A DNA stretch of 64,000 nucleotides, from positions 1,556,705 through 1,620,704 of the forward strand of contig NZ_KI783301.1 in NCBI RefSeq assembly GCF_000510645.1, in the 5' to 3' direction. Made by a program: the position numbers and the translations under genes. Numbering within the stretch: position 1 is the first letter of the stretch; the number at the start of each line of letters is the position of its first letter. Shown in pieces: positions 30,571-43,034 of the stretch. This DNA comes from Thermicanus aegyptius DSM 12793. GTDB lineage: Bacteria; Bacillota; Bacilli; Thermicanales; Thermicanaceae. The notes below the pieces were generated by a model. It worked only from the letters and a program-made list of their open reading frames with translations. It was not told where the DNA came from and searched no databases.

Positions 30571-31128
30571 TTATTTGGGTAGATTTTCTTTAAAACGTCG
30601 GAAGGCTTCTGAGAAATCGTACGAAGGCAAGTTTCTTTTTTTTAATTTCATTTGGTTCCAAATCTGATTTCCTTCAGTTTCCGTAATCATTCCTTTTGTT
30701 ACAGCCGAGCATAACACATCATCCGTTGAGATTAAGCCGAGTGAATATGTATTACAGTAGTTAAGAACATCTTTTAAATTATTACTTGCCACTGTTCCCT
30801 CAACCATTCTTGCCCTCGACATGACAGCTGCTTCCCCTTTGCCTATTCCACCACTTAGAAGTTTTAAATATTCTTTACCTTCGGGTGTACCAGGGTAGAT
30901 TTGGAAAACCGTGATGTTTTTCTTTTTAATTTCTTCTTCCAACAAAACCGAAACATGGCTATAATATGTAAAGCGTTTAAGAAAAGCTATTTCGTCAACA
31001 ACTACGTCAGGGACATAAATTTGCCCTTTATAAATTTCATACAGAATATCAAGTCTATTAATCCAAAGAAACGAGCTTATGAAATCGGTGTCACAAAGAT
31101 AAGGGGGGATTTGAGGAAGTTGCCTCAT
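30571..31128 (-). CDS. PIN-domain protein of an XRE-ImmA-PIN cassette
   Basis: A 185-residue protein with a PIN-like nuclease fold. An early Asp pair in LCDTDFISSF, VVVDEIAFL (Asp/Glu), GIGKGEAAVMSRAR (Glu) and LISTDDVL (Asp) occur in the order expected for the acidic metal-binding centre. If active it would be a metal-dependent RNase, perhaps a toxin or effector. Its ATG overlaps the stop of the ImmA-like gene by four bases, so it is translated with it. It is AT-rich compared with the flanking core genes. Confidence 0.7.
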   Translation of the reverse strand: MRQLPQIPPYLCDTDFISSFLWINRLDILYEIYKGQIYVPDVVVDEIAFLKRFTYYSHVSVLLEEEIKKKNITVFQIYPGTPEGKEYLKLLSGGIGKGEAAVMSRARMVEGTVASNNLKDVLNYCNTYSLGLISTDDVLCSAVTKGMITETEGNQIWNQMKLKKRNLPSYDFSEAFRRFKENLPK

Positions 31129-31886
31129 ATCAAATCCCCCTCTTCATGTTCATTTTCACTATATAATATATCGATCAGACCGGCTTCAAGCAGTAATTCC
31201 TCATATTTGCCCGATGATATTAGTCCTTTATCGAAGGCGATTTTTGCTTTTTCTGCATATTTAGATATAACGGCATAATCATTTGACTCTTGATATAGAG
31301 AAACATTATAACCAAGGGACCTAGCGTTTTTGATAACATTAGGTTTAAATACAGCTGCCTTTTCACTACTTAAACCCATTTGTTGTAATCTGACCAGCAT
31401 GGCTGTATGACTAATACCAAAGATCTGTTCAAGGTCGATTACATCTTTCAATGTAATGGTGGAATCATCTAATCTTTGTATACCTCGACGGTATAGATGA
31501 AAGTTAATTGCCTCATCAGGAGCGAGAAGATAAGATGCAAATAAATCAGCCTTGAATTCATTTGGTTCCCTAACGTCAAATCGACCTACAAAACAAACTC
31601 TACCTGATATATCAACATCGAATTTGATATGATAATACTCATGTGCGGCAGTAAAATTTTGATGCCCGATGCTGCGTTTTGTGTTAATAAATACCAATTC
31701 GGAGTGGCCGCGTTTCAGGAAAAATCCTGAAATATGACTGTCGATCGGTTCTTTTATGACATTTATATCTGCTTCTTTGAGCAGTTTAAAAACCTCAATA
31801 GGACTATAGGGGCTTATCCCATATTCTATTCTTGTTTCCAGTGCTTTTTTTTTACATATTTCGGCCCATTCATTCCATTTACTCAT
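31125..31886 (-). CDS. ImmA/IrrE family metallo-endopeptidase
   Basis: A 253-residue zinc protease family protein. FTAAHEYYHIKFD carries the HExxH active site (HEYYH), and an acidic residue in FKADLFASYLLAP is the likely third ligand. ImmA-type proteases cleave a partner XRE repressor to switch on mobile-element or stress genes, and here an XRE regulator is encoded directly upstream with a four-base overlap. The C-terminal 100 residues are helical and may sense the signal. The substrate is presumably the neighbouring XRE protein (inference). Confidence 0.88.
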   Translation of the reverse strand: MSKWNEWAEICKKKALETRIEYGISPYSPIEVFKLLKEADINVIKEPIDSHISGFFLKRGHSELVFINTKRSIGHQNFTAAHEYYHIKFDVDISGRVCFVGRFDVREPNEFKADLFASYLLAPDEAINFHLYRRGIQRLDDSTITLKDVIDLEQIFGISHTAMLVRLQQMGLSSEKAAVFKPNVIKNARSLGYNVSLYQESNDYAVISKYAEKAKIAFDKGLISSGKYEELLLEAGLIDILYSENEHEEGDLI

Positions 31887-32242
31887 CTTTTTGTTTCACC
31901 TTCCAGAAGCTCATCCAACCATTTCAAGTTGAATAAAAAACGTTGACAACGAGCCAACAGATCCAGATCTTTTTCAGATAAGCCTGTTGCGCGAAAAGCC
32001 ATGGCAACTGAATCGTGTTCTTCCGCCGTTTCCGATGCCGATAAAAAATACTCAGACGGATATCCGTAAAGATCAGCTAACTTAGATAATGAGAGAAGGT
32101 CAATTTCCCGTGATCCGGTTTCGAAATAGGAGATTTGTTCACGTGCAACACCTAAATATTTTCCCACTTGTAATTGCGTTAAACCATTTTCTTCCCGTGC
32201 CTTCTTTAATTTTCGTCCAATCTCCCTAAAAAGGTTTTCCAT
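31883..32242 (-). CDS. XRE-family transcriptional regulator
   Basis: A 119-residue DNA-binding protein with an N-terminal Cro/C1-type helix-turn-helix (residues about 8-62; GLTQLQVGKYLGVAREQISYFETGSR) and a helical C-terminal tail. It is the first gene of the minus-strand cassette and overlaps the ImmA-like protease gene by four bases. A perfect dyad operator lies 50-70 bases upstream in its promoter region, suggesting autorepression relieved by proteolysis. ATG 32242 follows AAAAGGAGCG. Confidence 0.9.
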   Translation of the reverse strand: MENLFREIGRKLKKAREENGLTQLQVGKYLGVAREQISYFETGSREIDLLSLSKLADLYGYPSEYFLSASETAEEHDSVAMAFRATGLSEKDLDLLARCQRFLFNLKWLDELLEGETKR

Positions 32243-32493: not shown

Positions 32494-32508
32494 TATTGGA
32501 GAGTGCAT

Positions 32509-33432
32509 ATGCAAAACGAAACTTTATTTTCACGTAATGGATTAGCAGTCAGGAACATAGCCCGTGAGCTTCTTGCGTGTGAAATCGGTTCGAGGATTCC
32601 TAGGGTTCAAGACTTCGCGGCCAAGTATGGAGTTGGGAGAGGAACCGTACAGTCCGCAATCCAACTTCTCACTGATTCCCGGGCAGTGGAACTTGATTCT
32701 CGAGGTCATCTGGGTACGTTCCTCCTGACAGCCGATTTTGCGAAATTGTGGGAATTCGCCGGCCGTTCCAATTTGATGGGGGCCATGCCTTTGCCGTATT
32801 CTCGACGAAACGAGGGATTGGCCACCGGGCTCTATGCGGTGTTCGAACAACAAAAAATCCCTTTTCACATGTCCTATATGCGTGGGGGTGCCAACCGTGT
32901 TAAGGCGTTAACCGAGGGCCGTTACGACTTTGTTGTTTTGTCCATGCGGGCTTCTCATCTGGCTGTCGAGGAGAATCATGTGGCAGTTTTACACGGCTTT
33001 GGTGCGCGTACTTACGTTGGTGCACACGGATTGCTTGTGCGCGATCCGAATATTCGCTCCGTAAAACCGGGGATGCGCTTCGGTATAGACTCGTCTTCGC
33101 TCGATCAATACACGTTAACCATGGAACTGTGCAAAGATATTGATGTTGAGTTTATTGAACTCCCTTACATGCAGATATTGGAACAGTTGTCCCAAGGAAA
33201 TATCGATGCGGCAGTTTGGAACATCGATGAGTTGGAAGAACGATTTGGGCAGCATGGACCGATTCACATCATCCCATTGGAGTTCAACGAGGACGACGCG
33301 ACGGAAGCCGCTTTGGTCGTTCGCCAAGAGGATCTAAAGATTTTCCAGAACCTTCTCAAGAAGGTCAATATGGAACAGGTGGTCGCAATTCAAAGGGATA
33401 TTCTCAATGGCGTACGGGTTCCCCGCTATTGA
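32509..33432 (+). CDS. yhfZ: YhfZ family GntR-like regulator with periplasmic-binding-like sensor domain
   Basis: A 307-residue regulator. Residues about 1-75 form a winged helix-turn-helix of GntR type (IGSRIPRVQDFAAKYGVGRGTVQSAIQLL). The rest (about 90-300) resembles a type 2 solute-binding fold (GGANRVKALTEGRYDFVVLS, MRFGIDSSSLDQYT, LSQGNIDAAVWNIDELEE), which would bind the inducer. E. coli YhfZ has the same architecture. ATG 32509 follows GGAGAG; GTG 32503 is in frame. It heads the operon next to a palindrome and is probably its autoregulator. Confidence 0.85.
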   Translation: MQNETLFSRNGLAVRNIARELLACEIGSRIPRVQDFAAKYGVGRGTVQSAIQLLTDSRAVELDSRGHLGTFLLTADFAKLWEFAGRSNLMGAMPLPYSRRNEGLATGLYAVFEQQKIPFHMSYMRGGANRVKALTEGRYDFVVLSMRASHLAVEENHVAVLHGFGARTYVGAHGLLVRDPNIRSVKPGMRFGIDSSSLDQYTLTMELCKDIDVEFIELPYMQILEQLSQGNIDAAVWNIDELEERFGQHGPIHIIPLEFNEDDATEAALVVRQEDLKIFQNLLKKVNMEQVVAIQRDILNGVRVPRY

Positions 33433-33451
33433 GACGACAGGGGGTGGTATC

Positions 33452-33805
33452 ATGAACGAGGCTTTGAATGAACGACTTGAGATTTTAGAAACCTCCCATC
33501 AGATTACTCCTCCTATTCGGGAACACGTTAAGCGATTTGTGGAGTGGTTTGAAAATACCTACCAGATTCCTCTCGGTGAAGAAAATGCAGGAGCGTTTGT
33601 TACACACTTTGCCGTCGCGTGCGCCAGACTGCAACGTGGGGAACCGGTAACGGAGATCCCTGAGAGTATTGCGGAAATCGTTTCCCGGCATCCGGAAGTA
33701 TACCAACAGGCACTCGGAATGTTTGAAGGGATTGCGGACAACGCCACTGAGGCAGAAATAGGCTTTCTCACCATGTACCTATGCCTGTTATTAGGAAAGG
33801 AGTAA
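33452..33805 (+). CDS. yhfY: YhfY-like single PRD-domain protein
   Basis: A 117-residue protein consisting of one PTS regulation domain (PRD). His52 in FVTHFAVACARL matches the first phospho-acceptor His of PRDs. The second conserved His is replaced by Tyr (EIGFLTMYLCLLL), so only one site could be phosphorylated. PRDs are modified by HPr-P or EIIB-P, and an HPr paralogue is encoded in the same operon. It has no DNA-binding domain and may act by protein contact, perhaps with YhfZ. ATG 33452 follows GGGGGTGG. Confidence 0.75.
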   Translation: MNEALNERLEILETSHQITPPIREHVKRFVEWFENTYQIPLGEENAGAFVTHFAVACARLQRGEPVTEIPESIAEIVSRHPEVYQQALGMFEGIADNATEAEIGFLTMYLCLLLGKE

Positions 33806-33811
33806 TAAGCG

Positions 33812-34186
33812 ATGACGATTCGGATTATGATTGGCGGTCTCAAGAAAGAGGTGATGGAACGGGCCGTTCGTCAGGCTGGCGGCAACAAGGTAGAGGTAAC
33901 GGTGACTTCTGATTTCGAAGCTGCAAAAAAAATTAAAGCAGGACAAGCGGATTACTATTTTGGAGCTTGCAACAGCGGAGGGGGTGCTGCCTTATCCGTT
34001 CCGATCGGAATACTGGGCTATGGGAATTGTGCAACGGTAGCCAAAGCAGGGGGACGTCCGAAAGCGGAAGAAATCGAAAAGCTCGTTCACGAGAACAAGA
34101 TCGCGTTTGGCATGGCTGTGGAAGCGATTGAAGAAGCTGTACCCATTTTGGTAAGGTGCTTGTTAAAAAAACATGGTTTAGAATAG
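33812..34186 (+). CDS. yhfU: YhfU-like protein (DUF2620)
   Basis: A small 124-residue cytoplasmic protein beginning with a beta-alpha unit (TIRIMIGGLKKEVMERAV). It continues with EVTVTSDFEAAKKIKAGQADYYF in two parts, a cysteine-glycine motif GACNSGGGAALS, and GILGYGNCATVAKAGG. The family is DUF2620, represented by YhfU in E. coli; function is unknown. Its size, Rossmann-like start and constant place next to the membrane protein YhfT suggest it serves the transporter. AAAGGAG precedes ATG 33812. Confidence 0.8.
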   Translation: MTIRIMIGGLKKEVMERAVRQAGGNKVEVTVTSDFEAAKKIKAGQADYYFGACNSGGGAALSVPIGILGYGNCATVAKAGGRPKAEEIEKLVHENKIAFGMAVEAIEEAVPILVRCLLKKHGLE

Positions 34187-34198
34187 GGGGGATGTGGT

Positions 34199-35554
34199 AT
34201 GGTGTTGAAACTTATTATCGTAGGCGTCCTTTGTGCCTTGACATCATTGGCGTCACACACAGGGCGAGCCGTGTTCCACGATGGGGTTCGACCGATTATG
34301 CCGGAGTATGTTGAAGGGAGAATGAGACGTGGAGAGATGGCATCCATCGCCTTTGGTTTGAGCGCCGGATTCGTATTTTCGGTTGGATTCGCATTTACCC
34401 TTGCATCGAAACTTTTAAATCCGTGGTTGCTCTTTTTGCCGACAGATATCCTTGGCGTTCTTGCTCCGAACAAGTGGATTGCTATCCTTTTCGGGGGAGC
34501 ATGGGGGATCGCTGTAACCGTTGCGTTTGATGCACTCAACGTCTTTTTCGGTCTGTTGCCCATCAATTTCTTAAACGCTTTGGGTGCACTCTCTTCTCCC
34601 GTCGTTGCGGGTTTTGCATTGTTCCCTGTTCTAGCGGTTTTCTACCAGTTTGGCAAAGTGAAAGGTATTATTACACTTGTTCTTGAATTAATCTTCCGTC
34701 AATTGGCCGCCACCAAAATTCTCACCGTGGGTGGGACGGCGATTTATCCGGAAGCGTTGGAAATGTTCGTCGGTGTAATCCTCCTTGTTGGGTTTGCGAT
34801 TGCCAAGGATGTGAAGGAAAATAAGACGAGAGAAAAAAGCGAAGGTTCCGGCGAAAGCATATTTGCAGTTCGTACTAAGCGCATTATGTCGTCCATTCCT
34901 TTGTTGGCGGTAATTGGTGGTTTGGTGGCTTTGATTAGCAACATGCAATATTTTGCGGGCTCCGAAGTTGACTTCCAAGCTCTTCACACTGCCTACCAAT
35001 CGACCGCATACCAGTCGGGAGACATGAGTCAAATTGGAACGATTGCGTTTGCCGACATGATTCGGGGCCTGGCCTTTATCCCCCTGATTGTGACAACGGC
35101 GTTGGCTTCGGGGGTTTACGGGGTAGTCGGGCTAACCTTCGTCTATCCCATCGGATATTATGTTGCCCCTGTTTTGTTCGGAAACGGTGTGGCAGGTCAC
35201 ATCGCCGCGTTCGTTCTTGGAGCCGTCTGGATAAGCCTCGAGATGTTGGCCCTTCGGGCTATTGGGAAAGGACTTGAGAACTTTCCGTCATTGCGTGAAG
35301 CATCGGACAGTATCCGCAATGCGATGAACAACGTGTTGGAGATCGCTTTGCTCATCGGTTCGGCATTAGCCGCCCTGGGAATGACCCACTCACCTCAAGA
35401 TCCGCAAAACTTCTTTGCTTTCGCAGTATTCGGAGCGTTGTATTTGATTAACGAGGCCCTTGGCCGCCCCGTCATTCGGTTGGCCGCCGCCCCTCTCGCA
35501 GCCATTATAACCGGTGTTGTCGTCAACATTTTCTATGTCTTGAACTTATTGTGA
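34199..35554 (+). CDS. yhfT: YhfT-like polytopic membrane transporter
   Basis: A 451-residue integral membrane protein with roughly ten to twelve hydrophobic segments spread over the chain, e.g. about 3-18, 48-68, 90-112, 130-150, 180-200, 240-256, 290-325, 340-360, 385-400 and 410-450. The loop LINFLNALGALSSPVVAGF-like region (about 120-140) and repeated glycine-rich helices resemble EIIC-like or secondary carriers. It is the family of E. coli YhfT, a putative transporter of unknown substrate. It lies 12 bases after yhfU and is probably the uptake protein of this operon. Confidence 0.8.
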   Translation: MVLKLIIVGVLCALTSLASHTGRAVFHDGVRPIMPEYVEGRMRRGEMASIAFGLSAGFVFSVGFAFTLASKLLNPWLLFLPTDILGVLAPNKWIAILFGGAWGIAVTVAFDALNVFFGLLPINFLNALGALSSPVVAGFALFPVLAVFYQFGKVKGIITLVLELIFRQLAATKILTVGGTAIYPEALEMFVGVILLVGFAIAKDVKENKTREKSEGSGESIFAVRTKRIMSSIPLLAVIGGLVALISNMQYFAGSEVDFQALHTAYQSTAYQSGDMSQIGTIAFADMIRGLAFIPLIVTTALASGVYGVVGLTFVYPIGYYVAPVLFGNGVAGHIAAFVLGAVWISLEMLALRAIGKGLENFPSLREASDSIRNAMNNVLEIALLIGSALAALGMTHSPQDPQNFFAFAVFGALYLINEALGRPVIRLAAAPLAAIITGVVVNIFYVLNLL

Positions 35555-35584: not shown

Positions 35585-35621
35585 CCCATGGTAGGATGGG
35601 CCTTGCCCATCCTACATGGGT
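35585..35621 (+). promoter_or_regulatory. Long intercistronic hairpin between yhfT and php
   Basis: GTAGGATGGGC (35591-35601) pairs perfectly with GCCCATCCTAC (35605-35615) around a three-base loop. The stem extends through CCCAT/ATGGG past one bulged G, giving about 17 pairs. No run of T follows (TTGTTTAATG), so it is more likely an RNA stabiliser, processing site or weak attenuator than a full terminator. It lies 21-67 bases upstream of the php start. Confidence 0.7.
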
Positions 35622-35641
35622 TGTTTAATGGGGTGAATCGT

Positions 35642-36556
35642 ATGGGATTGATCAGAACCGTACTCGGCGATGTGAAACCGGAATCCTTGCAAGCAACCAT
35701 GATCCACGAACACATCGCATTTGATTTGTCTCACGTTCGCAATGAATCGGATTCAATTCTTGGAGATACTCCGGAATTGGCGAACGAGCTTCTTCTTACG
35801 AAGGATTATGGGTGCAACGCGTTCGTGGAAGTAACGAACCGTGGGATGGGGCGGGACGTTCAGGCGTTGGCTGAATTGGCAAAGAGACTTGATATTTACA
35901 TCATATGTGCAACCGGTTTTTATAAGGAAAATGTTTATCCCGTCGAGGCGTTTGAAAAGTCCAGAGAAGAGCTGGCGGAACTGTTCGTATCCGAGATTAC
36001 CGCCGGAATTGACGGAACTCACATCAAGGCAGGGATCATCGCCGAGATTGGGAGCAGTTATCAGGAACTGACGAAAACGGAAGAGAAGGTGTTTCGAGCT
36101 GCTTGTGATGCCCATAAAAAAACAGGCGCACCGCTCAGCACACACTGTGAATTAGGCACGATGGGAATCGCGCAACTGCGGATATTCGAGTCTGAAGAAG
36201 TTGATTTTCGCCATATCTCGTTTGGTCATCAGGATCTCAACCGAAATATCGATGAACAAGTAACGTTGTTAAAAAGTGGAGCTTTTATCCAATTCGACAC
36301 CGTCGGCAAGAACAAGTATCGTCCTCACGACGAGCGTGTATCGAACTTGTTGGCCTTACTTGATAAAGGCTTTGAGGATCAACTGATGTTATCTGTCGAT
36401 CTTACGAGGAAATCCTATTTTCGCCAGAATAACGGTCCAGGTTATGTATATCTGTTTGATACGTTTCTACCGGATTTGCGGAACGCAGGTGTGCCGGATA
36501 GGGTCATCGAGAAAATGCTTATTGAAAATCCACGTCGTTTCCTGACGTTCGCCTAA
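35642..36556 (+). CDS. php: Phosphotriesterase homology protein (Php), amidohydrolase superfamily
   Basis: A 304-residue binuclear metal hydrolase. Metal ligands are visible in MIHEHIAFD (HxH), IIAEIGSS (Glu in place of the carboxylated Lys of true phosphotriesterases, as in E. coli PHP), STHCELG (His), ISFGHQDLN (His) and LSVDLTRK (Asp). Relatives hydrolyse lactones or phosphotriesters; the substrate of PHP is not known. It belongs to the same set of eight genes as in the E. coli yhf operon. ATG 35642 follows GGGGTG; an in-frame ATG at 35588 lies in the hairpin. Confidence 0.85.
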   Translation: MGLIRTVLGDVKPESLQATMIHEHIAFDLSHVRNESDSILGDTPELANELLLTKDYGCNAFVEVTNRGMGRDVQALAELAKRLDIYIICATGFYKENVYPVEAFEKSREELAELFVSEITAGIDGTHIKAGIIAEIGSSYQELTKTEEKVFRAACDAHKKTGAPLSTHCELGTMGIAQLRIFESEEVDFRHISFGHQDLNRNIDEQVTLLKSGAFIQFDTVGKNKYRPHDERVSNLLALLDKGFEDQLMLSVDLTRKSYFRQNNGPGYVYLFDTFLPDLRNAGVPDRVIEKMLIENPRRFLTFA

Positions 36557-36566
36557 GGTGATCAGA

Positions 36567-37664
36567 ATGAAGTTCTACCCATTGGAACCCATTTCTCTGG
36601 ACGATGCAAAGGAAGTGCAGTTTCGGTTTGTCCGGGCAATTGCCGATGTTTTTTCCGGTTCGGAATTTTTTCAGATGGGGGATGTGGGAGTCCCCCCGTC
36701 CGGAGCCCCTCTTAGGACACGGAAGGTAGAGAGGGTCTTAGCCAAGTTCTTTGGTGTTGAAGATTGTGCGTTGGTTCGCGGAGCCGGGACGGGGGCGATT
36801 CGATTGTCCCTGGCGGCGTATCTCGAAGCTGGTGAGACGGTGATTATCCACGATGCGCCTGTCTATCCTACCACTAAAGAGACATTTCGAATGTTGGGTC
36901 TAAAGACCTATATCGTCGATTTCCACGATGAAAAAGCCCTCTCGGATGCCGTACACCACGGCAAGCTGCTTTATATTCAGCACACGCGCCAAAAACCGGA
37001 TGATCACTACGACTTAGGGAGAGTCATCGCTATCGCCAAACGCGTTCGTCCGGAGCTTCCGATCGTGGTGGATGAAAACTATGCCGTCTTTAAGACAAGA
37101 CATATCGGAGTGCAAGTGGGCGCGGATGTGTCTACCTTCTCCGCCTTCAAACTGCTGGGACCCGAAGGGATTGGCGTCGTTTTGGGAAGCAAGGACTGCA
37201 TTGAGCGGATCCATGAGAGGAACTATTCCGGTGGAGGACAGGTTCAAGGCCCTGAGGCGATGGAAGTGTTGCGGGCATTCACCATCGCACCGGTCCTGAT
37301 TGCTGTCCAATCGGAACAGGTATCCCTCCTCGCAGACCTGTTAAATGCCGGATCTGTTCCGGGGATCCGCGAGGCTTACATTGCCAATGCCCAGTCCAGG
37401 ACCGTCATCGCTCGCCTCGATGAACCTATTGCTCCCCAGGTGATTGCAGCCTGTGAAGCATTTGGCGCAGCACCCTATCCTGTTGGGGCGGAGTCAAAAT
37501 ATGAGGTTCTTCCCATGATCTATCGCGCTTCCGGAACGGTTTTAGAAAGTGAGCCGGCATTGAAACCCTATTTGTTACGGATTAATCCGATGAGAGCCGG
37601 TGCCCGGCTCGTTGTGGACATCCTAAATAAGGCGTTGGCGAAGGTACGATCCGATCATGACTAA
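36567..37664 (+). CDS. yhfS: YhfS-like PLP-dependent aminotransferase/lyase family protein
   Basis: A 365-residue fold-type I PLP enzyme. It shows DCALVRGAGTGAIRLSLAA near residue 74, IVVDENYAVF (the Asp that contacts the PLP nitrogen) and FSAFKLLGPEGIG with the probable PLP lysine. GGGQVQGPEAMEVLRAF follows. It is related to YhfS of E. coli and to cystathionine-lyase-like and threonine-aldolase-like enzymes; whether it transaminates or eliminates is open. ATG 36567 follows AAGGTGAT; GTG 36558 is in frame. It overlaps the next gene by eight bases. Confidence 0.82.
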   Translation: MKFYPLEPISLDDAKEVQFRFVRAIADVFSGSEFFQMGDVGVPPSGAPLRTRKVERVLAKFFGVEDCALVRGAGTGAIRLSLAAYLEAGETVIIHDAPVYPTTKETFRMLGLKTYIVDFHDEKALSDAVHHGKLLYIQHTRQKPDDHYDLGRVIAIAKRVRPELPIVVDENYAVFKTRHIGVQVGADVSTFSAFKLLGPEGIGVVLGSKDCIERIHERNYSGGGQVQGPEAMEVLRAFTIAPVLIAVQSEQVSLLADLLNAGSVPGIREAYIANAQSRTVIARLDEPIAPQVIAACEAFGAAPYPVGAESKYEVLPMIYRASGTVLESEPALKPYLLRINPMRAGARLVVDILNKALAKVRSDHD

Positions 37665-38700
37665 GATGGAATGGATGGAACGGTTCGCCTACGCCTACGC
37701 TAACGCCTATCGGTACACCGATTCTATCGTCTGGGTTAACCCGACAGCTCCCACGAGCGCTAGGAAAAAACTGGAGCAGCATATGGAGCTTATTTTATTC
37801 GGTGTGAAGGATACCGATCAAATACCGATGAATGCAGTCCGGCAGCTCATCGAGGCACCCGACTTCGTATGGATGACCGTGGACCGAATGGCTCCGTATG
37901 GGAGGGCAATGGATCCGGGATTGACGAATCCGTTGACCGGCCGCCTCATGACCGGTTCCTCAAGCGGTAGCGCCCTCAATATTTTACGTGGAATTCATGA
38001 TCTCGCCATCGTTACGGACGGAGGCGGATCAATCTTAGGCCCGGCGCTTGCCACTCAGTTATATGGGATCAACGCCAAGGGAATGGGGTTAACCGGGCTG
38101 CACCCGTCTCGTTCCACCGACGGATTTTCCCTGGAAGTGGGGATTGGAGTTATCAGTCACTCATTCGCCTTTGCGAAGAGTGGTATCGAAACGCTGTTGT
38201 GTCGAACCCTGGACGATCATGTAGAAGGACTGTATATTGCACTGGACCGTGCGGCGCCGGATAATGTAGAGGACCTATTGCGTCAGTACGGATGTACGAT
38301 TCGCCGATTTGATAAAGGGGATTCGTATGAGAGAACTCGTGGGCTTTCTCTGATGAATGAACTTTTCAATGAAAACCAAGTGATTATCAGCATGGAAGGC
38401 CCCGTAGATGTAAAAGAGTATGCAGACTCTTTGGTCATGGACGGACGTCCGGACGGGCTGGGTGGAAAGTTTCTTCTGCGCAGCGCGAACCTGGCAAATA
38501 CGACGTCCGTGGCCGTCCCGGGGAATAAGGCCGCATCGGGATTTATCGTCATTGCGCCAAGTGGCGTAGAATCGGGTAATCATGCGATCGCAGTGGCCGG
38601 CCTGCTGGCGAAACACTATCCACGATCCGCGCTATTTGAGGATTACTTCCTTCGACGCATGCGTTACGGGCAGACTGGTTTTTTTCATGAAGGGATGTGA
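37657..38700 (+). CDS. Compact amidase-signature family protein
   Basis: A 347-residue protein with the amidase-signature catalytic set: Lys51 in FGVKDTD, cis-Ser Ser101 in TGSSSGSAL and nucleophile Ser125 in TDGGGSILGPA. The 24-residue spacing between the two serines equals that of GatA and FAAH. The chain is about 100 residues shorter than usual, including the region between Lys and the first Ser (50 instead of about 75). It should hydrolyse an amide. I know of no counterpart in the E. coli yhf operon. It overlaps yhfS by eight bases. Confidence 0.75.
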   Translation: MTKMEWMERFAYAYANAYRYTDSIVWVNPTAPTSARKKLEQHMELILFGVKDTDQIPMNAVRQLIEAPDFVWMTVDRMAPYGRAMDPGLTNPLTGRLMTGSSSGSALNILRGIHDLAIVTDGGGSILGPALATQLYGINAKGMGLTGLHPSRSTDGFSLEVGIGVISHSFAFAKSGIETLLCRTLDDHVEGLYIALDRAAPDNVEDLLRQYGCTIRRFDKGDSYERTRGLSLMNELFNENQVIISMEGPVDVKEYADSLVMDGRPDGLGGKFLLRSANLANTTSVAVPGNKAASGFIVIAPSGVESGNHAIAVAGLLAKHYPRSALFEDYFLRRMRYGQTGFFHEGM

Positions 38701-38704
38701 CATC

Positions 38705-39856
38705 ATGTTTCTCGCTCAATTGCTCACTAGAAATGAAACGTTTATCGATCGTGCGCTTCAACTCTACAAGTCCGGATTCATCCCCCCCAATTCCTATGTT
38801 TTAGATGTGGACCAAATCCAACGGAACACCGAGTCCATCGTACAAACCGCAAAAAAAGAGAGAATTAATCTTTACTTCATGACCAAGCAATTCGGTCGGA
38901 ATCCGGTTGTTTATCAATCCATCGTGTCGGCAGGTATAAAAAAGGCCGTTGCGGTTGATCCGGTGGAAGCCCTAACCTTGGCGCAAAATGGGGTGGAATT
39001 GGGACATGTGGGGCATCTTGTGCAAATCCCCCGATATTACATGGAGCCAATTCTCCGGTGGCGTCCGGAAGTGGTCACAGTTTTTAGTATCGATGCGGCG
39101 AGGGAGGTCTCCCGGGTGGCTTCCGACCTTGGCTACGAGCAGGATCTTCTGTTGCGTGTCGTACGGCCGGATGACTATTTGTACGACGCACAAGAAGGGG
39201 GGATACCGCTTAACGATTTGGAGGAAGTGGTTCAGACCATATCGGCACTTCCCAATGTGCGTGTGGTGGGAGTCACCTCTTTTCCGTGCGTCATTGTGCA
39301 GGATGGTGTCCCCACGTTCACCAACAACCTTAAAACACTTCAGTTGGCTAAAGAGCGACTTCAGGAATTGGGGGTTGAATTGAAGCAGGTGAACGCACCA
39401 AGCGTCACTTGTGTGGCAACCCTTCCCATGTTGCGAGCCGCGGGCGTCACTCATGGGGAACCGGGGCATGCTTTGACGGGGTCCACCCCTTTGCATGCGT
39501 TACCCGGGCAGGTGGAAGTGCCGTCCTACCTCTACATTACCGAAGTCTCCCACTACTTCAACGGTTATAGTTATGTTTATGGAGGCGGGTATTATGCCCG
39601 TGGACATATTCAACATGCGCTTGTGGGAGGTTCCTTGACAACGGCGGAACATGTTGAGGTAGCTCCTCTCCATGCGGAAAGCATCGACTACTACTTGAAA
39701 ATTGCCGGTAAATTTCCAGCAGGAACACCCGTGATCCTCGCTTTTCGAACGCAGATGTTCGTAACCCGAGCTAACGTGGTTCCTGTAACGGGAGTTCATG
39801 AGGGGCGACTTAAGGTTGCCGGAATTTATAATGTTGAAGGGAAGCGAATCGGATGA
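38705..39856 (+). CDS. yhfX: YhfX-like alanine-racemase-fold PLP protein
   Basis: A 383-residue fold-type III PLP enzyme related to alanine and amino-acid racemases. SYVLDVDQIQRNTESIV and LYFMTKQFGRNP (probable PLP lysine) lie near residues 22-62. VAVDPVEALTLAQNG and HVGHLVQIP follow, with GVTHGEPGHALTGSTPLHA and a C-terminal beta domain (GGGYYARGHIQHALVGG) later. It corresponds to E. coli YhfX; the substrate is unknown. ATG 38705 starts five bases after the amidase stop, and the stop overlaps yhfW by four bases. Confidence 0.85.
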   Translation: MFLAQLLTRNETFIDRALQLYKSGFIPPNSYVLDVDQIQRNTESIVQTAKKERINLYFMTKQFGRNPVVYQSIVSAGIKKAVAVDPVEALTLAQNGVELGHVGHLVQIPRYYMEPILRWRPEVVTVFSIDAAREVSRVASDLGYEQDLLLRVVRPDDYLYDAQEGGIPLNDLEEVVQTISALPNVRVVGVTSFPCVIVQDGVPTFTNNLKTLQLAKERLQELGVELKQVNAPSVTCVATLPMLRAAGVTHGEPGHALTGSTPLHALPGQVEVPSYLYITEVSHYFNGYSYVYGGGYYARGHIQHALVGGSLTTAEHVEVAPLHAESIDYYLKIAGKFPAGTPVILAFRTQMFVTRANVVPVTGVHEGRLKVAGIYNVEGKRIG

Positions 39857-41043
39857 AACGAGCAGTCCTGTGTGTTCTTGATGGATTCGGTGCGGGGGCG
39901 ATGGAAGATGTTTCCGCTGTCCGTCCGCAAGATAGAAATGCGAATACGATGCGGCATGTCATTGAACAAACAAGTGTAAAGATACCCTTCCTTAGTCGGT
40001 TAGGGCTCCCCCATATCCTTAACGATCCTTCGTTATTAGCGCTTACTCCCCCTCTGGCGAGTTATGGCAAATGCAATCTATATCATTACGGGGCGGACAG
40101 TTATACCGGTCATAACGAAATCATGGGAGCAAAACCGATTATGCCAAAAACACAGTTTATCCGTGAATTGGCGCCGCTGATTGAAAAACGGCTGGTGGAA
40201 AGAGGGTTCAAAGTAGAATATCCGGTTGCAGGTACCGGCATTCTGCTCGTCGACAACGAGGTTGTCATCGCCGACAATATGGAAAATGACCCGGGGCAGA
40301 TCATCAACATTACAGGAGCATTGGATACGACCCCGTTTGAAAAGATCTTTGAGATTGGGAAAATTGTACGGACCATCGCCGAAACCAGCCGCGTCATTCC
40401 TTTGGGAGGGACCGGCATTACCGTAAGTGATATTCTCTTGAACATTGTGATAAAACCGGAGCGGACCGGTGTGGATATGGGACGTCTAAATATATACAAC
40501 GAGAACTATCAAGTTCGGCATCTAGGTTTTGGAATTGATCCCGACAAACAAATACATTCCATCCTCATGAAGCAAGGATTGGAAGTATATCTGTATGGGA
40601 AGATGGCGGATGTGATCACGGGAGAGGTGATGGAACGAAATCCCATGGTCAACAGCCAGGGCGTGATGGACCTAATCTGTAATCGATTGGAGAATATGAA
40701 GAGCGGATTTATCTCCGCTACCATTCAGGAAACGGATTTAGCCGGTCATGAGCAGAACCCGGAAAAGTTCGCGGCGGTCTTGGAAATTGCGGACGCAGGT
40801 TTACGCCGTATTTACGATATGCTTCATCCCGGAGAGCTCCTGATCGTAACCGCCGATCATGGCAATGACCCGACCATAGGCACAAGCCAGCATACCCGGG
40901 AAACAACCCCGCTTCTCGTCTGTGTAAAGGGATCTCCGGCGCGGGAACTGGGGCTACGCACCACACTCGCCGATGTTGCGGCCACAATAGCGGATTACTT
41001 TGGGGTGAGCGCACCGGAATTTGGGACTTCCGTGTTGTCGTAA
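39853..41043 (+). CDS. yhfW: YhfW-like phosphopentomutase-family metalloenzyme
   Basis: A 396-residue alkaline-phosphatase-superfamily protein of the phosphopentomutase type. Metal and catalytic motifs are AVLCVLDGFGAGAME (Asp), GADSYTGHNEIMG (Thr nucleophile), ETDLAGHEQNP, VTADHGNDP and SQHTRETTPLL. The full set suggests an active phosphomutase or phosphatase. E. coli YhfW is of the same family with unknown substrate; a sugar or amino-sugar phosphate is plausible given the NagB-like and HAD genes downstream. Confidence 0.85.
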   Translation: MKRAVLCVLDGFGAGAMEDVSAVRPQDRNANTMRHVIEQTSVKIPFLSRLGLPHILNDPSLLALTPPLASYGKCNLYHYGADSYTGHNEIMGAKPIMPKTQFIRELAPLIEKRLVERGFKVEYPVAGTGILLVDNEVVIADNMENDPGQIINITGALDTTPFEKIFEIGKIVRTIAETSRVIPLGGTGITVSDILLNIVIKPERTGVDMGRLNIYNENYQVRHLGFGIDPDKQIHSILMKQGLEVYLYGKMADVITGEVMERNPMVNSQGVMDLICNRLENMKSGFISATIQETDLAGHEQNPEKFAAVLEIADAGLRRIYDMLHPGELLIVTADHGNDPTIGTSQHTRETTPLLVCVKGSPARELGLRTTLADVAATIADYFGVSAPEFGTSVLS

Positions 41044-41080: not shown

Positions 41081-41338
41081 ATGTACGAAAAAAAAGCAAT
41101 TGTTAACTTAAACCAAGGGCTGCACGCACGCCCTGCCACTGAGTTTATCCAAAAGGTACGTCAATTTGGAAGCAAAGTATTTGTGATCAAAGAAGGAAAA
41201 GCTGTGGATGCCGGAAGCATTCTAGGGTTGATGTCGATGGCTGTCGTTAAGGGAACCGAAGTTACCATTCGGGCCGAAGGGGCGGACGAAGTGGAAGCGG
41301 TAGAGACTCTTTGTAAATTTCTTACGCAGACGGAGTGA
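41081..41338 (+). CDS. HPr-like phosphocarrier protein
   Basis: An 85-residue HPr paralogue. His15 in GLHARPATEF is the EI phosphorylation site and Ser46 in AGSILGLMSMAV is the HPr-kinase site, so both regulatory residues are kept (unlike Crh, which lacks His15). No EI or EII gene is adjacent, so it is not a normal ptsH locus. Likely roles are phosphorylation of the PRD protein YhfY or carbon-catabolite signalling through CcpA. AAGGATAGGTG precedes ATG 41081. Confidence 0.9.
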   Translation: MYEKKAIVNLNQGLHARPATEFIQKVRQFGSKVFVIKEGKAVDAGSILGLMSMAVVKGTEVTIRAEGADEVEAVETLCKFLTQTE

Positions 41339-41414
41339 GATAAGTTATCACAAAATTCTTCAATGACAACGTGAAACCATTCTTGGGTCAATGGAAGAGA
41401 GGAGGGATGGCAAA

Positions 41415-42164
41415 GTGAAGATTCGAATCTTCAACAGCCCCCATGACGCGGGCATCTATGTTGCTGCATTAGCGGAACAGATCATTGAAAGTCGAAGGAA
41501 ACCTGTTTTGGGACTTGCCACTGGGTCTACGCCGATTCCTTTTTACGAGGCATTGGTTCATCTGCATCAGTGTGGTCTCGACTTATCACGGGTAACGACC
41601 ATCAACTTGGATGAGTATATCGGATTAGATTCTTCCCATCCTCAAAGTTATTCGTGGTTTATGTGGAAACATCTCTTTTCCCATGTAAACATACCAAAAG
41701 AGAATATATATCTGCCAAACGGGGTAGCAACCGATTTGGAAGCGGAATGCCGCAGATACGACGAAATCATCCATTCTCATCCGATTCACCTTCAGATCCT
41801 TGGGATTGGCGTTAATGGGCACATTGGTTTCAATGAACCGGATGACACCTTACTTTCCGGAACGCACATTGTTGAATTGCGCCCGGAGACCGTAATGAGC
41901 AACGCGAGATTTTTCAACGACATTGGAGAGGTGCCAAAGCGTGCGATTACTATGGGGGTTCAGGCCATATTACAAGCCGATAAAATCGTGTTGATGGCAT
42001 TTGGGCGCGAGAAAGCGAAGATCATCGCTAAATCCGTCTACGGTGAGGTTCGTACGGACGTTCCTGCGAGCATCCTCAACTTGCACAAAGACGTGACCGT
42101 GGTACTTGATCGCGACAGTGCCGGTGAGTTGTTGGACGAAAGCGGCCGGTTGCGGACGAAATAA
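41415..42164 (+). CDS. Glucosamine-6-phosphate deaminase-like isomerase
   Basis: A 249-residue NagB-family sugar-phosphate isomerase/deaminase. LGLATGSTPIPFYEAL (phosphate loop), TTINLDEYIGL (catalytic Asp), GIGVNGHIGFNEP (His relay) and KRAITMGVQAIL are all intact, so it probably converts glucosamine-6-phosphate, or a close amino-sugar phosphate, to the ketose phosphate and ammonia. GTG 41415 was chosen for the product start MKIRIFNSP and the GGAGGG upstream. It gives a direct hint that the operon handles an amino sugar. Confidence 0.87.
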   Translation: MKIRIFNSPHDAGIYVAALAEQIIESRRKPVLGLATGSTPIPFYEALVHLHQCGLDLSRVTTINLDEYIGLDSSHPQSYSWFMWKHLFSHVNIPKENIYLPNGVATDLEAECRRYDEIIHSHPIHLQILGIGVNGHIGFNEPDDTLLSGTHIVELRPETVMSNARFFNDIGEVPKRAITMGVQAILQADKIVLMAFGREKAKIIAKSVYGEVRTDVPASILNLHKDVTVVLDRDSAGELLDESGRLRTK

Positions 42165-42224: not shown

Positions 42225-43034
42225 ATGATTCGTATGTTCTTTTTTGATATCGACGGAACTCTCATCGTTCCAAAAAAAGGTGAGGTTTCGGAACGCGTTC
42301 GCCGTGCCATCTTCATGCTCCATGAACGAGGCATTGTTCCCATCCTAGTATCCGGCAGGCCCCTCTTCTCCATGATTCCGCTCGCCGAATCTCTTTCCAT
42401 CAGGGGGTGTATCGCTTATAACGGAGGACTGGTTGTTGTCGATGGAGAGGTGGTGTATGACAACCCCATAGACGAAAGCAGGGTAGAACAGCTGGTTTCC
42501 TTTGCAAATTCTAATATGCATCCACTCATATTTCCTGGAATGGACGGTTATTACGCAACGACGCTGGATCATCCGAAGGTACGGGAAATTTTTCAATATA
42601 CTACCACACTCAACCATTCCTATTGGAAACATTATACTCCCAAACTAAACCCATCGTATTGGAAAACCCATCCTATCTATCAAATGGAACTGATCGCGCC
42701 GATGGAAGAACTAACCCTATACCAGGAACGTTTTGGACAAGAATTTCAGTTTTATCCATGGCATGTAGCCTCGTCCGCGGCGAACATAAATCCTCTCGCC
42801 AACTCCAAAGCGATTGGAATGCACCATGTGTTAAAACGGTTTTCACTAGATGAATCCGTTGCGGCCGCCATCGGCGACGGACCGAATGATATCGAGATGA
42901 TCCGCTCCGCACATCTCGGCATCGCCATGGGAAATGCTTGTAAAGAGCTTAAGTCTGCGGCGGATCTCGTTGCAGAAGATGTTACTGCGGACGGGGCCGC
43001 CAAGGCGATTGAAATGTTGTTGGAGAGCGGGTAA
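42225..43034 (+). CDS. Cof-type HAD-IIB phosphatase
   Basis: A 269-residue HAD hydrolase. Motif I is FFDIDGTLI (nucleophile and acid/base Asp), motif II is ILVSGRPL, and motifs III/IV lie in AAIGDGPNDIEMIRSA and GIAMGNACKELK. The C2-type cap (about residues 80-190) holds a short internal duplication, LNHSYWKHYTPK / LNPSYWKTHPIY at about 126-149. Cof-type enzymes dephosphorylate sugar phosphates and related compounds. It follows the NagB-like gene with its own AAAGGGG ribosome binding site. Confidence 0.88.
   Translation: MIRMFFFDIDGTLIVPKKGEVSERVRRAIFMLHERGIVPILVSGRPLFSMIPLAESLSIRGCIAYNGGLVVVDGEVVYDNPIDESRVEQLVSFANSNMHPLIFPGMDGYYATTLDHPKVREIFQYTTTLNHSYWKHYTPKLNPSYWKTHPIYQMELIAPMEELTLYQERFGQEFQFYPWHVASSAANINPLANSKAIGMHHVLKRFSLDESVAAAIGDGPNDIEMIRSAHLGIAMGNACKELKSAADLVAEDVTADGAAKAIEMLLESG

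Follow-up and report, generated by a model that had tools for sequence, protein, structure and literature searches.

A compact amidase-signature subfamily dedicated to yhf operons in several bacterial phyla

What does the uncharacterised yhf gene set break down? Searches of the open literature gave us incidental mentions only, and no description of what the yhf operon or the gene studied here does. That gene, termed AMI, lies within a yhf operon of Thermicanus aegyptius DSM 12793, in a stretch of 64,000 nucleotides (the window, whose numbering is used throughout), and it offers a handle on the question. A preliminary description made from the sequence alone had proposed a shortened amidase-signature (AS) enzyme acting on the operon's substrate. 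We consider whether AMI is a genuine AS protein, how closely it is tied to yhf, and which substrate its surroundings point to. The operon and adjoining genes are listed in Table 1; on the minus strand at 30571-32242 there are three adjoining ORFs, read by eye as an XRE regulator, an ImmA/IrrE-type metallopeptidase and a protein of PIN type.

Table 1. Features of the yhf operon in the window, its same-strand neighbours and the codons of the predicted catalytic residues of AMI.
Feature	Position	Strand	Evidence or remark
yhfZ, GntR-type regulator with YhfZ_C domain	32503..33432	+	NF041241, E 2.4e-106
PRD-domain protein (yhfY equivalent)	33446..33805	+	PF00874; invariant His in 100/100
yhfU, DUF2620, RpiB-like fold, invariant Cys53	33812..34186	+	domain match and predicted fold
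yhfT, membrane protein, presumed transporter	34199..35554	+	PF10797, E 1.8e-135
php/yhfV-like phosphotriesterase-family hydrolase	35588..36556	+	PF02126
yhfS, PLP fold-type-I enzyme	36558..37664	+	PF22475, PF01053
AMI, short AS-fold amidase, 347 aa	37657..38700	+	ATG start
Lys51 codon (catalytic Lys by homology)	37807..37809	+	K in 78/78 relatives
Ser101 codon (cis-Ser by homology)	37957..37959	+	S in 78/78 relatives
Ser125 codon (nucleophile by homology)	38029..38031	+	S in 78/78 relatives
yhfX, PLP alanine-racemase-like enzyme	38705..39856	+	PF21279, PF01168
yhfW, phosphopentomutase-like	39853..41043	+	NF009049, E 9.8e-142
HPr-family phosphocarrier, same-strand run with operon	41081..41338	+	
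nagB, glucosamine-6-phosphate deaminase, same-strand run	41391..42164	+	
Cof-type HAD phosphatase, same-strand run	42225..43034	+	

Predicted catalytic residues and fold of AMI

The preliminary description had read a 347-residue ORF carrying Lys51, Ser101 and Ser125 and overlapping yhfS, and this can be read off directly at 37657-38700: yhfS ends at 37664, which gives an overlap of 8 bases, and yhfX most likely starts right behind the AMI stop, as judged by eye. The homologous residues in GatA of the same genome are Lys78, Ser153 and Ser177. The gap between the two serines is 24 residues in both proteins, whereas the Lys-Ser distance is 50 in AMI and 75 in GatA, just as had been claimed. The Ser-Ser gap of FAAH is also 24 residues.

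We aligned the window protein with 77 of the 79 located relatives, the truncated L134 and L138 (L numbers denote loci) being left out. Lys51, Ser101 and Ser125 are invariant in all 78 sequences at a mean column identity of 28%, and the triad pattern is therefore far beyond chance. The full set of invariant positions comprises G49, K51, D76, G82, P92, M98, G100, S101, D121, G122, G123, G124, S125, P129, A130, G164, R226, E247, D251 and K271, among which, beyond the triad, the charged residues D76, R226, E247, D251 and K271 may take part in binding the substrate. A regex count covered the 71 of 79 located sequences that passed the motif filters (the other eight being regex misses or truncated). 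The Ser-Ser spacing was 24 in every one and the Lys-Ser spacing 49 or 50 in 69; in the two reading 68 the regex had caught an earlier A-I-K-K string. Residue 127, a position usually held by Arg in canonical AS enzymes, is Leu in 76 of the 78 and Ile in two. A canonical AS protein of the same genome (L168) likewise has Leu there, so Leu127 is not a failed defining feature. At L138 (3519-4313 and the preceding ORF) AMI appears as two separate ORF matches and yhfX as several, either broken genes or sequencing errors.

Profile searches found AS membership, and the best match to an unrelated family that would have spoken against it did not turn up. The window protein scored 26.2 bits against the Pfam Amidase model PF01425 over residues 95-138, just under the gathering cut-off of 27, and 76 of the 78 aligned proteins matched the model at E<=0.01 (best 4.1e-11). 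None of 22 named NCBIfam AS equivalogs (GatA, AtzE, allophanate hydrolase and others) was reached at its curated cut-off, the best scores being E 3.5e-06 and 26.0 bits against 481.1 required for GatA. Comparison of the AMI alignment with four canonical AS proteins by hhalign gave a probability of 98.6% (E 6e-16) and placed the AMI Lys, Ser and Ser onto the canonical triad columns. The same alignment has a gap of about 20 residues in AMI soon after the Lys-Asp motif, which mostly explains the short Lys-Ser distance.

Structure prediction likewise recovered the AS fold. The AlphaFold2 model built on the AMI alignment (pLDDT 93.7, pTM 0.93) has a short loop after Lys51, then a helix (58-66) and a strand (70-76). 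The best Foldseek match was an amidase (E 3.7e-14), and the 50 matches listed all belong to the AS enzymes, judged by title or family. In VIA-align the model matched GatA 2df4 with Z 29.9 (318 of 347 residues aligned, rmsd 3.8), and peptide amidase, plant FAAH and others tied with GatA within 1 Z. The notion that the resemblance to amidases is fortuitous and AMI belongs to an unrelated family could appeal to the window protein alone, which falls 0.8 bits short of the Pfam gathering score, and to streptavidin, which heads its single-sequence phmmer PDB rows (E ~0.01). The streptavidin hit is a Gly/Ser-rich match and was rejected; a chance motif was likewise rejected on the profile and fold results. 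The fold matches, the PF01425 matches of the relatives and the hhalign result together refute this notion, to which we give practically no credence.

The label 'shortened' holds for the family as a whole: relatives have 327-432 residues (median about 360) against AS profile lengths of 395-615, and the subfamily is also shorter than the solved AS chains, which span 403-1660 residues among the matches listed. The further term 'minimal amidase' is a fair description of the protein, but the short form is not peculiar to this genome and is common to the whole subfamily. AMI thus represents a compact AS scaffold, mostly of about 330-380 residues, shorter than the AS chains among the matches listed.

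Linkage to yhf genes, spread and loss

When the GTDB species set was scanned with a profile of the AMI alignment, 117 relatives emerged, from which the best-scoring 80 were taken. The expectation that the same short form would stand beside yhf genes in other genomes was borne out at 79 of these 80 loci (the best 80 of 117). All nine families were present at the threshold used in 62 loci; in several of the remaining ones the contig ends within the operon region. A scan of genome contigs with the single AMI sequence gave no matches; the family-level genome sample consisted of the window's own genome alone. Carriers of AMI with yhf belong to Bacillota and at least five other phyla and include, by record title, Alicyclobacillus, Neobacillus, Clostridium, Halanaerobium, Brachyspira, Treponema, Olsenella, a Thermotogae bacterium and a Synergistaceae bacterium. 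One Cetobacterium plasmid bears AMI with yhf genes; the plasmid search matched AMI in Cetobacterium only, and the phage search gave no AMI match.

The place of AMI in the operon varies: some loci have it behind yhfS, others between yhfT and the phosphotriesterase gene, and it may also stand at one or the other end or be divergent. Pairwise AMI distances correlate with those of six yhf proteins (r 0.62-0.73 over 72 loci, against shuffled maxima of 0.07-0.12), for example YhfX (0.73; shuffled maximum 0.08) and YhfT (0.70; 0.12). Collectively these data show that AMI is an AS superfamily member dedicated to yhf, a conclusion of which we are all but certain. The sole exception among the 80 fetched loci is L118, where AMI stands without yhf neighbours; its upstream neighbour resembles, by eye, a phosphoglucosamine mutase. 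L015 holds a divergent AMI relative outside yhf. By eye, the run at L015:1747-9367 contains a DeoR-type regulator, parts of a sugar ABC transporter, a kinase of FGGY type and an ORF resembling ribulose-phosphate epimerase, and the solo AMI relative closes this run, a setting that speaks for a sugar-linked substrate. An extra gene between yhfS and yhfX in L071 (10700-12076) proved to be an IS110-type transposase and was dropped as a clue.

In a [Clostridium] citroniae record (L153:7633-9936) YhfT and AMI form one ORF of 768 aa, which may be a sequencing error; the spacing script did not locate this AMI, and it is therefore outside the 78-row alignment. If genuine, the fusion suggests that AMI may act as a cytoplasmic enzyme coupled to uptake.

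The pathway can evidently run without AMI. Independent sampling through YhfT gave 33 distinct yhf genomes, of which 13 have AMI, one has a remnant and 19 have none (G230, a fragment, and G263, G281 and G535, whose YhfT matches fell below the cut-off, were left out of this count). A class-wide search of 398 genomes gave AMI matches in 8 at E<=1e-5, among them the window's own genome, one short remnant and a single canonical amidase. The AMI-less yhf genomes of that sample had no AMI elsewhere in the genome at the same threshold. The remnant at L016:7784-7981 (minus strand) retains 66 N-terminal codons of AMI between yhfS and yhfX, the rest being deleted.

We built a tree from four concatenated yhf proteins, using the 104 loci that have three or all of them and a midpoint root; L016, with its 66-aa remnant, and L153 were both scored as amidase-positive. 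On this tree AMI requires 8 state changes and is present at the root, whereas shuffling gave 17.7 changes on average and never fewer than 13. AMI is thus likely to be ancestral in yhf operons and to have been lost repeatedly. We say likely and not proven because of the midpoint rooting and of the sampling, which is enriched for AMI carriers since most loci came from the amidase search.

Neighbouring genes and the predicted yhf substrate

We clustered 572 flanking ORFs without preselected families. The first cluster was NagB (14 loci), followed by a beta-lactamase/PBP4B-type protein (13 loci; its representative scored 324 bits, below the model's cut-off of 385) and a Cof-type phosphatase (10). 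Among same-strand runs at 110 loci, NagB occurred in 13, HPr in 7 and PBP4B/AmiE-like proteins in 7; runs were defined by gaps of <120 bases. This count took in only loci with three or more yhf genes, and nine had been set aside beforehand, namely L039, duplicates of named records and loci that lack an operon. The background of NagB is about 0.8 per genome (64 matches in 81 genomes), so that 13 NagB among 121 adjoining ORFs compares with a rough expectation of about 0.03 on an assumed 3,500 genes per genome. Five loci (L087, L088, L092, L095 and L141) resemble the window in having same-strand HPr, some PtsI and several NagB after yhf. MurP, MupG and MurQ stand beside yhf in four loci, two of them (L106 and L109) close relatives, MupG in a fifth and NamZ in one (L123). 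NagB also flanks operons that lack AMI (L083, L084) and hence does not require it. The NagB, PBP4B and Mur neighbours point to a recurrent link of yhf to amino-sugar and cell-wall salvage, though most yhf loci have no cell-wall gene alongside.

A further pointer comes from YhfU. Its AlphaFold2 model (pLDDT 96.6) matched ribose-5-phosphate isomerase B in Foldseek (E 3.6e-04) and the RpiB/LacAB isomerase fold in VIA-align (Z 13.8, 111 residues aligned, rmsd 2.6). Sequence profiles gave a weak hhalign match to RpiB (probability 11.4%, E 0.0026), in which Cys53, invariant in 104 of 104 sequences, aligned to RpiB Cys64, and the best RpiB-type row of a PDB profile search had E 0.46. The invariant Cys, the invariant His of the PRD-domain protein and the HPr/PtsI neighbours had raised the idea that YhfU is a PTS EIIB; this was weakened by the VIA range, with RpiB-type structures at Z 9-14 and PTS IIB rows at about 7. 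The predicted RpiB-like fold supports sugar-phosphate chemistry in the yhf pathway.

AS enzymes form an acyl-enzyme on the nucleophilic Ser, with the cis-Ser and Lys as proton relay. AMI is probably an active amidohydrolase and would form the acyl-enzyme on Ser125 with Ser101 and Lys51 as the relay. We favour, as reasonably probable, a reading in which AMI is a cytoplasmic Ser125/cis-Ser101/Lys51 amidase that cleaves an amide in the small molecule of the yhf pathway; an amide bond would then be one chemical step of that pathway, as the preliminary description had supposed, and AMI would act inside the cell. In outline, it would open the amide of an imported, small, probably phosphorylated, sugar-linked compound. 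YhfW (mutase), YhfU (RpiB-like) and NagB could then process the sugar part, and the PLP enzymes YhfX and YhfS would take over the remaining amino-acid or acyl part. That the substrate is a sugar-linked amide we hold only tentatively, at a little under an even chance, and that it comes from the cell wall is doubtful.

The three other readings that we weighed all accept the AS fold. AMI may be an active AS amidase for an amino-acid-type amide without an amino sugar, the NagB, HPr and Mur adjacency reflecting shared regulation or chance. It would fit that the core set has two PLP enzymes (YhfS, YhfX) and lacks a sugar kinase, that NagB/Mur neighbours are missing from most loci, and that the YhfZ C-terminal half weakly matches an amino-acid-binding protein family (SBP_bac_3, E 0.0097). 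The isomerase-like fold of YhfU, the phosphopentomutase-like YhfW and the excess of NagB among adjoining ORFs argue against this reading, which we consider unlikely while taking it seriously. That AMI is instead an ammonia-supplying or amidotransferase subunit like GatA, feeding a yhf enzyme and not acting as a free hydrolase, would suit both its best VIA match and its nearly constant company of the same enzymes; yet that match is tied with peptide amidase and plant FAAH, the operon has no GatB/GatC-like partner, and many yhf operons do without AMI, and we judge it improbable. A catalytically dead AS-fold protein for binding or sensing would accord with the dispensability of AMI seen in lineage-specific losses, including the L016 remnant; invariance of the triad at such low overall identity makes this very improbable.

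Within the favoured reading of AMI as a cytoplasmic amidase, a fuller scenario can be drawn, speculative and on balance improbable as a whole. The yhf genes would form an undescribed salvage route for an amide-bearing sugar-phosphate (an amino sugar of the N-acyl, lactam or peptidyl type, derived from cell-wall turnover), AMI would free the amino sugar so that NagB could work without a NagA step, and YhfU would be an RpiB-type isomerase. In the version kept by E. coli, loss of the amidase would have narrowed the range of substrates. With an amidase that is conserved and apparently ancestral, the NagB/Mur neighbours and an RpiB-like YhfU, one can ask in testable form whether yhf handles a substrate that bears an amide and is probably linked to a sugar.

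Comparison with known systems

What is new here is a cross-phylum, yhf-specific AS subfamily that is missing from the operon of E. coli and whose neighbourhood points to sugar and cell-wall chemistry. The yhfSTUVWXYZ operon of E. coli K-12 shares all eight other genes with that of the window and differs in having no amidase gene. PBP4B-type genes at yhf loci belong to the beta-lactamase family and not to the AS superfamily, and B. subtilis AmiE is presumably of the same kind. PMC5061867 places PBP4B in the murQ cluster of E. coli and AmiE (YbbE), a MurNAc-L-alanine amidase, in that of B. subtilis. The likeness to AMI lies in amide cleavage during muropeptide salvage, with PBP4B-type genes adjoining several yhf operons, whereas muropeptide degradation in B. 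subtilis is extracellular according to the same source, so that AmiE serves as an analogy only.

Among AS enzymes, GatA resembles AMI in fold, in the Lys/cis-Ser/Ser positions and in the Ser-Ser gap. It differs in length (490 aa against 347), in the Lys-Ser distance given above and in its motif, S-D-T-G-G-S-I-R, where AMI has TDGGGS-V/I-L; its partners GatB and GatC have no counterpart in the yhf operon of the window. Malonamidase E2 (1obk, 1o9o and others) is one of the shortest AS enzymes with a solved structure in the matches listed. Its solved chains have 412 aa, compared with 347 in AMI, and 21% identity to AMI; the fold is shared at Z ~26 with 294-295 residues aligned.
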